From the NCBI GenBank assembly GCA_022564935.1, contig JADFKM010000039.1, positions 1 through 19,465 of the forward strand: a DNA stretch of 19,465 bases, given 5' to 3'. This document shows positions 15,570-19,465 of this stretch, in pieces. The DNA is from Candidatus Dadabacteria bacterium. Lineage in GTDB: Bacteria; Desulfobacterota_D; UBA1144; Nemesobacterales; JADFKM01. Made by a program: the position numbers and the translations under genes. Position 1 is the first letter of the stretch. Each line of letters begins with the position of its first letter. The notes under the pieces are model-generated. The model was given only the letters and a program-made list of their open reading frames with translations. It made no database searches and was not told where the DNA came from.

Positions 15570-15860
15570 TCATCCACCCCTGGAATCGCTGAACGGGATG
15601 CTTATGAAAAGCTGATCCCTGTTCCCCTCGGATTTGATATCTATCACTATGCTGCTCGTGCTCAATTGGGGGTATTGGTTAAACAACAGAACGAGGTCCC
15701 TTTGCAGCTGGTCGGTAAAGTTCGAGGGGAGTCCCTTTCTCTCGTACGAAAGAACCATCATCAACCTTTCTTTTGCAATGCTAGCGGAACCTTTCTTTCT
15801 GAATAAATCAAATATAGACATTACTAAACCTTTCCTTCTGAATAAATCAAATATAGACAT
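15570..15860 (-). CDS. minE: MinE, cell-division topological specificity factor, with doubled N-terminal helix
   Basis: MinE binds MinD at the membrane, stimulates its ATPase and drives Min oscillation. The frame from 15860 gives 96 residues: MSIFDLFRRKGLV is followed directly by MSIFDLFRKKGSAS, then the MinD-binding SIAKERLMMVLSYER helix and the C-terminal dimerisation domain. A normal MinE has only one such N-terminal amphipathic membrane-targeting helix. The second Met (15821) has AAGG seven bases upstream, inside the first copy, and would give a standard 83-residue MinE. The first Met has no comparable site but lies 2 bases after the minD stop and could be reached by reinitiation. Either one or two isoforms may be made. 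It is the third gene of minC-minD-minE. Confidence 0.93.
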   Translation of the reverse strand: MSIFDLFRRKGLVMSIFDLFRKKGSASIAKERLMMVLSYERKGLPSNFTDQLQRDLVLLFNQYPQLSTSSIVIDIKSEGNRDQLFISIPFSDSRGG

Positions 15861-15867
15861 TACTAAC
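15790..15867. repeat. 39-bp tandem duplication at the minE 5' end
   Basis: Units 15790-15828 and 15829-15867 differ at two positions by direct comparison. The unit covers the minE start, its first nine codons and the bases between the minD stop and minE. Because 39 is a multiple of three, the duplication stays in frame. Confidence 0.95.
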
Positions 15868-16645
15868 CCCCGAATAGTCGGCTTAAGATTCCCTTTCGCT
15901 GTTCAAGCTCATCGAAGGGCACGTCTTCACCTTCGAGCCTTTTTGCAACATTTATCAGCGCCTTGGCAATTGGGGATTCCTCCTGCAGTACAATAGGCTC
16001 GCCCTTGTTGGTGAAGTGAATCATCCTATGGTCTTCGGGAATGATCCCGATCTTGGGTATGTGAAGTATCTCCTCGATGTCTTCGACCGAGAGCATCTCA
16101 CCCTTCTTCACCTGGTCTAATTTGATTCTGTTAACGACCAAACTGATATTGTCCTTGTCCATGGATTCCAGAAGACCTATGATCCTGTCGGCATCCCGCA
16201 CCGACGACACCTCGGGGTTTGCCACCACGAGCACCTCGGTTGCAGGGGCGGCAGCTAACTTGAACCCCTTTTCTATGCCGGCCGGGCTGTCGATAATGAT
16301 GTAGTCGAAACCGTCTTTTATCCCCTCGACCATCTTTGTGAAATCCTCCGGCGTAATGCTATCCTTGTCCCTTGTTTGCGCCGCGGGGAGCAGATACAGT
16401 TTTAGTCCGCGTTTGTCCTTTACAAACGCCTTCTCGGTCTGAACCCTGCCCTCTACGGCATCCACCACATCGTAAACGATCCTGTTTTCCAAACCGAGGA
16501 TCATGTCCAGATTCCTCAGTCCGATATCGGCGTCTATTGTTAATACCTTCCTGTCCAGAGAGGAGAGCGCCACGCCAATGTTAGCCGTAAGAGTAGTCTT
16601 TCCAACCCCTCCCTTGCCCGATGTCACCACAATAACCCTAGCCAT
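15863..16645 (-). CDS. minD: MinD, septum-site determining ATPase
   Basis: MinD is the membrane-associated ATPase that recruits MinC and is displaced by MinE. The 260-residue protein has the deviant Walker A motif GKGGVGKTT at 10-18 (K11 and K16), switch regions LTIDADIGLRNLDMILGLE and IIIDSPAGIE, and SLVVNRIK. It ends in the short amphipathic membrane-targeting helix KGILSRLFGG. AGGAG eight bases upstream supports the ATG at 16645. It is 18 bases downstream of minC, and its stop is 2 bases before the first minE ATG. Confidence 0.97.
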   Translation of the reverse strand: MARVIVVTSGKGGVGKTTLTANIGVALSSLDRKVLTIDADIGLRNLDMILGLENRIVYDVVDAVEGRVQTEKAFVKDKRGLKLYLLPAAQTRDKDSITPEDFTKMVEGIKDGFDYIIIDSPAGIEKGFKLAAAPATEVLVVANPEVSSVRDADRIIGLLESMDKDNISLVVNRIKLDQVKKGEMLSVEDIEEILHIPKIGIIPEDHRMIHFTNKGEPIVLQEESPIAKALINVAKRLEGEDVPFDELEQRKGILSRLFGG

Positions 16646-16663: not shown

Positions 16664-17269
16664 TCATATTTTCTCTATAATTATCTGGCTTTCCTTAACG
16701 TAAGCCTTCTCGGGATACTCCGCGATGTCGGGCTCGTCGGGAGCGCGTGTAATGTAGCTACCAATTCTCAGCTGCTGCGGAATCAGCTTAAGCGCCATCA
16801 CGGTTACGGTTTCATCACCGCCTGCGCCTGCGTGAACTATCCCACGCAAGGTGCCCATTACTATGACATTTCCCGAGGCTATCACGTAAGAATCTGGGTT
16901 TACGTCCCCGATAACGAGTATGTCTCCGGTATGCTCAATCCTTTGTCCGCTTCTTACCTTTTTGTTTATTATTTTAAGGGACCTTTCCTTGATCGCGCTT
17001 AAGGCCGCCTTCGGTTTCCCGGCCCCTTTCCCATCCAAGGGTTTGTACCCCAAAAACCTGGCGTTGTGTCTACTTAGAACGTCTTCGATCTTCCTCTTAC
17101 CATCTTCATCAAGGTCCATGTCATCGTAACTGATTATCGCCATAGAGCCCTTGAGCACCGTCGAAGAGAGCTTTTCCTCGAGTTGGGAGATATTCTCCTG
17201 CAGGGATTGATCCCCATCAAGCTTCACCAGCAGCGCAGGAACGGTTATGCCCTTTATAATGATTCCCAT
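16664..17269 (-). CDS. minC: MinC, septum-site determining protein
   Basis: MinC inhibits FtsZ polymerisation away from midcell. The 201-residue protein has an N-terminal domain (1 to about 85, IIIKGITVPALLVKL onward) and a charged linker. The C-terminal beta-helix domain (about 105-180) carries GDILVIGDVNPDSYVIASGN and IVMGTLRGIVHAGA, the family signature. It is slightly shorter than E. coli MinC (231 residues). The ATG at 17269 has only a weak GGA upstream. It is the first gene of minCDE, with a candidate promoter 60-90 bases upstream. Confidence 0.95.
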   Translation of the reverse strand: MGIIIKGITVPALLVKLDGDQSLQENISQLEEKLSSTVLKGSMAIISYDDMDLDEDGKRKIEDVLSRHNARFLGYKPLDGKGAGKPKAALSAIKERSLKIINKKVRSGQRIEHTGDILVIGDVNPDSYVIASGNVIVMGTLRGIVHAGAGGDETVTVMALKLIPQQLRIGSYITRAPDEPDIAEYPEKAYVKESQIIIEKI

Positions 17270-17916: not shown

Positions 17917-19014
17917 TCATACCGTACGCTCCACCGCGGGCTGCTCCCGCGTTATGCAGTGCACGCAGCCCAGTCCCCAGACAAGGTCGACGCAATGTAC
18001 CCCGACCACTGAGTGTCCGGGAAACAGCTCCCCCAACACAGCGAGCGCCGCTCTGTCCGCGGGGTCGTTAAATGTGGGAACGAGCACTGCGTTGTTGCAT
18101 ATGTAGAAGTTAAGGTAGCTTGCCGGAAGCCTTACCCCCTCGAAATAAAGGGGCGCGGGCATGGGTAGGGTCACCACCTCCGCCTTAGAGCCGTCCTCTA
18201 ACCTCAAGTCTTCGAGCCGCTCCAGGTTCTCCCGGAGAGAAGCGTAGTTGGCGTCGGCGGGGCTCGCCTCAACAGCAGCTACGACAGTGCGGGGATTAAC
18301 GAACCTGCACACACCGTCGATGTGGCCGTTGGTGTCGTCCCCCGCAATTCCCCCCGCAAGCCAGAAGACGCCGCTCACCCCCAGGGAGTTCCTAAGCGCC
18401 TCCTCTACGTCAGTCTGTCCTAGGCCGGGGTTCCGCGCCTGAGTCGTGGTGTTAAGGAGGCACTGCTCGGTGCAAATTACCGTTCCGCGGCCGTTCACGT
18501 CAATGGCCCCTCCTTCAAGCACGAACCCCCTTTCACCCGACGAGGCGTTGAAAACGGCTAGACCGAGTGCTTCGGCCACAAGCTCGGGCACCGCGTCGTC
18601 GAGCTTCCAGTCCGGGTACCTAGCCCAGCCGTTGAATCGGAAGCGTGAGACGGCAACCTCCGGGCTTCCCTCCCCACGTCGGACGAACACGGGGCCGTAG
18701 TCTCTGACCCAGCTCCTATTGGTGGGAAAGCTGAAAAACTCCACTCTTGAAAGCTCGACCCCCGCGCGCCGCAGGACACCGCGCGCACGACTCTTGTGTG
18801 TAGGGAAATTGACCATTATGCGCACGGTCTCACCCGCCGCAATATGCTTCACCACCTCTGCGAAGACCCACTCCACCGCCCTGAGCTTCCCCGGCCAATC
18901 GCTTGTGCTATGCGGCCAGGCGAGCCAAGTGCTGTTATGGTGTTCCCATTCGGCGGGCATGGAGTAACCGAGCTCAAGCGGAGTCTTGGAGGTCTCACGG
19001 CTAACAGCGGTCAT
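17917..19014 (-). CDS. aguA: Agmatine deiminase
   Basis: AguA converts agmatine to N-carbamoylputrescine and ammonia. The 365-residue guanidino-group-modifying enzyme has MPAEWEHHNSTWLAWPH near the N-terminus, NRSWVRDYGPVF, VLEGGAIDVNGRGT, the catalytic-His region GDDTNGHIDG, and the C-terminal GLGCVHCITREQP with the nucleophile C353. These are all the family's active-site segments, at the expected length. Its ATG overlaps the aguB stop by four bases (ATGA), so translation is coupled to aguB, the enzyme of the next step. Confidence 0.96.
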   Translation of the reverse strand: MTAVSRETSKTPLELGYSMPAEWEHHNSTWLAWPHSTSDWPGKLRAVEWVFAEVVKHIAAGETVRIMVNFPTHKSRARGVLRRAGVELSRVEFFSFPTNRSWVRDYGPVFVRRGEGSPEVAVSRFRFNGWARYPDWKLDDAVPELVAEALGLAVFNASSGERGFVLEGGAIDVNGRGTVICTEQCLLNTTTQARNPGLGQTDVEEALRNSLGVSGVFWLAGGIAGDDTNGHIDGVCRFVNPRTVVAAVEASPADANYASLRENLERLEDLRLEDGSKAEVVTLPMPAPLYFEGVRLPASYLNFYICNNAVLVPTFNDPADRAALAVLGELFPGHSVVGVHCVDLVWGLGCVHCITREQPAVERTV

Positions 19015-19465
19015 GGCTTATCGTCCAGAATCCGGCGCTCGATACCGCCGTAGGCGTCCGTCCTGCGGTCTCTTAAGAACGGCCAATTGCGCCTTACGTC
19101 TTCGATGCGGGCCGGGTCTATCTCGGCGTATAAAATCTTCTCCCCGTCCTCAGGGGCTTCGTCAATGACTACGCCCTGCGGGTCGCACACGAAGGAGTGT
19201 CCCCAGAACTGTATCCCGTCTCCGTTGTCGGCAGGTGTCTCGCGCCCCACCCTGTTCACACATGCCACGTACACCGAGTTCGAGATGGCGTGTCCCCTCT
19301 GAACTGTTTTCCAGGAATCAAGCTGGGTCGAACCCTCGCTTTCCTTCTCTGCCGGGCACCAGCCTATGGCTGTGGGGTAGAAGATGACGCTCGCTCCGAG
19401 GAGCGCGGTGAGGCGGGCGGCTTCCGGGAACCACTGATCCCAGCACATGAGCACCCCTATGCGGC
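19011..19465 (-). CDS. aguB: N-carbamoylputrescine amidase, C-terminal part
   Basis: AguB, a nitrilase-superfamily amidase, hydrolyses N-carbamoylputrescine to putrescine, CO2 and ammonia. The visible ~151 residues start at RIGVLMCWDQWFPE, which contains the nucleophilic cysteine. They continue through AARLTALLGASVIFYPTAIG, RGHAISNSVYVACVNRVG, IQFWGHSFVCDPQG and the C-terminal RRNWPFLRDRR that is typical of AguB. The N-terminal half, with the catalytic Glu and Lys, lies beyond the window edge. The stop overlaps the aguA start in an ATGA arrangement, so aguB-aguA forms a two-step polyamine operon. Confidence 0.95.
   Translation of the reverse strand, partial: RIGVLMCWDQWFPEAARLTALLGASVIFYPTAIGWCPAEKESEGSTQLDSWKTVQRGHAISNSVYVACVNRVGRETPADNGDGIQFWGHSFVCDPQGVVIDEAPEDGEKILYAEIDPARIEDVRRNWPFLRDRRTDAYGGIERRILDDKP

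Follow-up and report, generated by a model that had tools for sequence, protein, structure and literature searches.

The closest described systems are the E. coli-type MinCDE system (MinE family PF03776) and an engineered variant of MinD. In E. coli, the membrane-targeting sequence (MTS) of MinE comprises residues 2-12 (PMC6803595, PMC5473585), with L3, L4, F6, F7 and L8 followed by R10, K11 and K12 (PMC5473585). The latent MinE dimer hides the MTS and frees it on meeting MinD (PMC6803595). Mutations in the MinE MTS, or its loss, lower the minimum wavelength of the Min pattern and increase ATPase stimulation (PMC5473585). A MinD carrying two copies of its MTS shows a raised membrane affinity and forms standing waves (PMC8155659). 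Translational coupling of minD and minE has been stated for E. coli (PMC2814086).

The window, which is the whole stretch of 19,465 nucleotides analysed here, resembles the E. coli-type system in the order minC-minD-minE, the MinE fold and its MinD-contact segment, the presence of one complete MTS directly before that segment, and an intact C-terminal membrane helix of MinD. It differs in an additional N-terminal unit of 13 residues in MinE, which contains a second MTS, and in a second in-frame start of minE with its own ribosome-binding-like site. Like the MinD-2xMTS protein, it has a Min membrane helix twice in succession; however, that construct is engineered, located at the C-terminus of MinD and joined by a GGS linker (PMC8155659), whereas the present case is natural, located in MinE and known from sequence. 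MinE is a known protein, and the doubled MTS start is a new variant, seen once.

The min locus and the repeat at the minE start

The genes minC, minD and minE adjoin in that order, all on the minus strand. The features of the locus are as follows.

15570..15860, minus strand: minE, 96-aa form, stop included; open reading frame matching Pfam MinE PF03776 and PDB MinE 3ku7; residues 1-13 are the extra unit
15570..15821, minus strand: minE, putative 83-aa form from the second start (ATG2), equivalent to the normal MinE of relatives, whose alignment starts at residue 14
15863..16645, minus strand: minD, intact, with the C-terminal membrane helix KGILSRLFGG
16664..17269, minus strand: minC, intact (MinC_C E=6e-33, MinC_N E=5e-5)
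15827..15865, minus strand: repeat unit copy 1, containing the minD stop TAG, TA, the first start (ATG1) and MSIFDLFRRKG-LV (extra MTS)
15788..15826, minus strand: repeat unit copy 2, containing ATG2 and MSIFDLFRKKG (ancestral MTS position), 38/39 identical to copy 1

The Pfam MinE profile matches residues 25-90 with E=1e-12 and 48.2 bits against a curated cut-off of 25, and the alignment with PDB MinE 3ku7 begins at residue 13 of the 96-aa protein. The family profile and the gene order thus agree with the original prediction, which had named the gene following minD as minE. Two further minus-strand ORFs were recognised by eye only: one at 17917-19014 resembling agmatine deiminase and, before it and close to the end of the contig, one at 19011-19454 resembling N-carbamoylputrescine amidase.

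A repeat finder and TRF agree on one two-copy direct repeat of 39 bp, 97% identical, at 15788-15826 and 15827-15865, the units of which lie head to tail and share 38 of 39 bases in the best register. Over the whole window, among self-matches at lags of 6-300 that allow one mismatch, the longest spans 40 bases (lag 39) and the second longest 14, so the repeat is not due to chance. The tandem duplication proposed earlier from the letters of the sequence is therefore borne out by both repeat searches and the self-match scan, but its span, given as 15790-15867, was two bases off; that register leaves two mismatches between the copies, as the prediction had it, and the register of 15788-15865 leaves one. 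This A/G difference changes codon 9 of the unit, which is AGG (Arg) in copy 1 and AAG (Lys) in copy 2. The repeat sequence occurs at a single place in the genome, and the idea of a repeat family with members elsewhere was rejected.

The repeated bases begin right after the Gly-Gly end of minD. ATG1 is located at 15860 and ATG2 at 15821, and two nucleotides separate ATG1 from the minD stop TAG (15865-15863). Since the unit equals 13 codons, the reading frame is preserved, and the minE frame directly past the minD stop reads MSIFDLFRRKG-LV-MSIFDLFRKKGSASIAKERL..., with MSIFDLFRRKG-LV-MSIFDLFRKKG as its doubled start. This upholds the proposal of two consecutive in-frame copies of MSIFDLFR(R/K)KG. 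The N-terminal MTS, composed of hydrophobic residues and a subsequent cationic cluster, is present twice in the 96-aa MinE. A single MTS at the extreme N-terminus is usual, though not defining, for the MinE family; the longest frame of the present gene contains two. Each copy has the hydrophobic residues I3, F4, L6 and F7 and the cationic residues R8, K/R9 and K10, matching the residue types of the E. coli MTS, and the recognition of the doubled segment as the membrane-targeting helix of MinE was correct (PMC6803595, PMC5473585).

Relatives and the age of the duplication

In the alignment with the window MinE, 16 relatives begin at residue 14; the relatives met in the searches likewise align only from there or slightly upstream. 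Because the relatives start there and the Pfam match starts at residue 25, residues 1-13 represent an addition. The closest sequences found, with identity up to 65%, are MinE proteins of Hydrogenothermaceae (Aquificota), for example L014, which have a similar start, MSIFDLFRKKK, but a single MTS where the window MinE has two. The window MinD groups with MinD of the same order and of Hydrogenothermaceae. As a side observation, neither protein of the window, MinE or MinD, is markedly closer to the same order than to Hydrogenothermaceae, and the occurrence of MinE in this order is patchy (8 of 43 genomes).

It had been suggested that relatives be searched for the same doubled start, and none was found in the same order, in two other phyla or in a scan across species. 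A search with the 96-aa protein did not find it in MinE of the seven other genomes of the order, all of them from other families. Nor was it present among the matches in 80 of the 84 genomes of one other phylum and 129 of the 136 genomes of a further one, these two phyla being Aquificota and one further MinE-rich phylum, with about 210 MinE together. All 17 relatives from the scan of 84,980 species, with one genome per species, have a single MTS, as does each of 20 loci read directly, most of them borderline and chosen mainly for alignments reaching furthest toward residue 1. For plasmid-borne MinE, the best 15 of 26 matching records align from residue 9 or later. In total, none of about 230 relatives has a doubled MTS, the systematic survey covering the same order, Aquificota and the one further MinE-rich phylum, and the scan of one genome per species adding the rest. 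Its being common to the order, or to Aquificota and the further phylum, was rejected, with no instance among the matches. The literature searched contained no published MinE with a doubled MTS, and the doubled start was seen in one genome only.

Two loci from two genomes of another phylum, L107 (G127:C2:3663000-3664100) and L108 (G126:C170:11900-12900), each carry two adjacent full-length minE genes, which is a duplication of the whole gene and not of the helix. In L018, a contig labelled Flavobacteriales, MinDE group with Persephonella; this is probably a mislabelled or contaminated bin.

In sampled stretches of the window's genome amounting to 815 kb, 13 tandem arrays with a period of at least 20 were found, and two of them, the minE repeat included, are two-copy arrays at 95% identity or more. 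With so few near-perfect arrays, a genome-wide habit of tandem duplication was rejected. Such a duplication is thus uncommon among the MinE examined and atypical for this genome.

The copies are nearly identical even at silent sites, which indicates a recent duplication, and the absence of the doubling from every relative examined suggests that it is private as well as recent. The single difference between the copies is too little for an informative test of selection. The Arg codon of copy 1 corresponds to Arg at this place in same-order relatives, so Lys in copy 2 may be the derived state, although the polarity is uncertain. The inferred ancestral sequence is ...GGGGGT/TAGTAATG...AAAGGTT/CCGCT..., with the 4-base GGTT at both ends of the unit, and the observed junction of the copies is AAAGGTT/TAGTAATG. 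Because GGTT stands at both ends, the duplication could have originated by slippage with one extra T; it could also have been a clean 39-bp event. An event of 38 bp would place a stop after copy 1.

Start sites and translation of minE

Both starts are preceded by Shine-Dalgarno-like sites, the energies being those of the duplex between the leader and the 16S tail, with the universal anti-Shine-Dalgarno sequence assumed.

15865..15872, minus strand: Shine-Dalgarno-like site of ATG1, CGGGGGTT, in the last minD codons; duplex -9.8 kcal/mol; GGGGG also in same-order relatives
15828..15839, minus strand: Shine-Dalgarno-like site of ATG2, AGAAGGAAAGGT, inside copy 1; duplex -7.7 kcal/mol

Ten other starts in the window, two of them at approximate start positions, gave values from 0 to -9.3 kcal/mol. 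The duplex of ATG2 would weaken to -4.4 kcal/mol if the letter of copy 2 were present instead. A ribosome site for the internal Met had been predicted within the first copy, and AAGGAAAGG indeed occurs in copy 1 upstream of ATG2. As both ATGs have such sites, both starts are credible, and the idea of two starts is plausible. RNA structure around the starts gave no signal (z = -0.26).

In same-order relatives, the minD stop lies a few nucleotides from the minE ATG, and GGGGG stands just before this ATG. Since the relatives keep the same arrangement of stop, GGGGG and ATG, ATG1 has the ancestral coupling context. Reinitiation would favour the nearest ATG, and the 96-aa form is therefore probably the main product; the normal 83-aa form is probably made too.

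The doubled helix and its possible effect on Min dynamics

For the 11 residues of either copy, the hydrophobic moment is 0.41 (Fauchere-Pliska scale) and the charge +2. When both copies are treated as one continuous helix, the moment drops to 0.13, and a single long amphipathic helix was rejected: the 13-residue spacing turns the face of the second copy by 220 degrees. Owing to this shift, the copies are expected to form two separate helices, interrupted at Gly-Leu-Val. The AlphaFold model, with a helix at residues 3-10, a separate one at 17-20 and the MinE fold from about residue 30, agrees with the two-helix reading, albeit at low confidence for residues 1-27.

The reading that we somewhat favour is that a recent 39-bp tandem duplication of the segment spanning the minD stop and the minE start, private to this lineage, yields a MinE with two MTS in series, which is made in a long and a short form, lingers longer on the membrane and lengthens the Min pattern. 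After terminating at the minD stop, ribosomes would most likely reinitiate 2 nt downstream at ATG1 and produce the 96-aa form with both MTS, and a smaller amount of 83-aa MinE would probably come from ATG2 by way of the AAGGAAAGG site in copy 1. In the long form, copy 2 would occupy the normal place beside the MinD-contact segment, so that the latent state could still conceal it and an encounter with MinD set it free. For copy 1, the closed MinE dimer offers no known binding site; this copy would presumably stay accessible as a short amphipathic helix of its own and would raise membrane affinity moderately. By analogy with the MinE MTS mutants and the engineered MinD-2xMTS, a MinE with two MTS should linger longer, and the Min pattern is expected to gain in wavelength or period. 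Such a pattern might be tolerable for division and perhaps near neutral.

The main rival is a real but inconsequential duplication, a transient near-neutral polymorphism in which the 83-aa MinE from ATG2 is the functional protein and copy 1 is a translated leader or a tolerated extension. We consider this a distinct but lesser possibility. It would fit the recency of the event, visible in the near identity of the copies, the occurrence of the doubling in no other genome examined, and the usable Shine-Dalgarno-like site of ATG2; furthermore, engineered MinE with N-terminal tags still makes patterns, with altered properties (PMC6922632, PMC8155659). However, an extra MTS is not an inert tag, and the coupling context of ATG1, kept by relatives, makes the long product hard to avoid. 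That the mixture of MinE with two and with one MTS, made from tandem starts, forms a natural Min oscillator selected to tune wavelength or period to cell size appears unlikely.

It is quite improbable that the second unit is an artefact added by the assembler from two strain variants with one real unit. The assembly (104 contigs, 88.6% complete) resembles a metagenome-style one, in which the single difference between the copies could be a strain variant. However, ordinary short reads are longer than the 78 bp of the two-copy repeat, and the tendency of assemblers is to collapse such short repeats rather than to create them. The preserved frame and the copy-specific difference within the 78 bp also argue against an artefact, as does the rarity of near-perfect two-copy repeats in the genome, which indicates no general fault. 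A true junction of GGTT instead of GGTTT would put TAG after MSIFDLFRRKG, leaving copy 1 as a short leader peptide and ATG2 as the start of MinE. This layout would follow from the simplest event, a 38-bp duplication through the 4-bp GGTT microhomology, from which the observed junction departs by one extra T. It is very improbable, because the sequence as given has three T, a run not prone to short-read error, and the 39-bp unit as observed already forms a clean tandem copy.

In vitro, the membrane helix of MinE determines the length scale of Min patterns. The membrane affinity of MinE has been probed so far mainly by loss-of-affinity mutants. If the doubled start is only a recent private duplication, it shows hardly more than that changes of this kind are tolerated by the Min system. 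A natural doubling of the MinE helix would be a ready-made gain-of-affinity variant, bearing on how membrane affinity tunes the selection of the division site.
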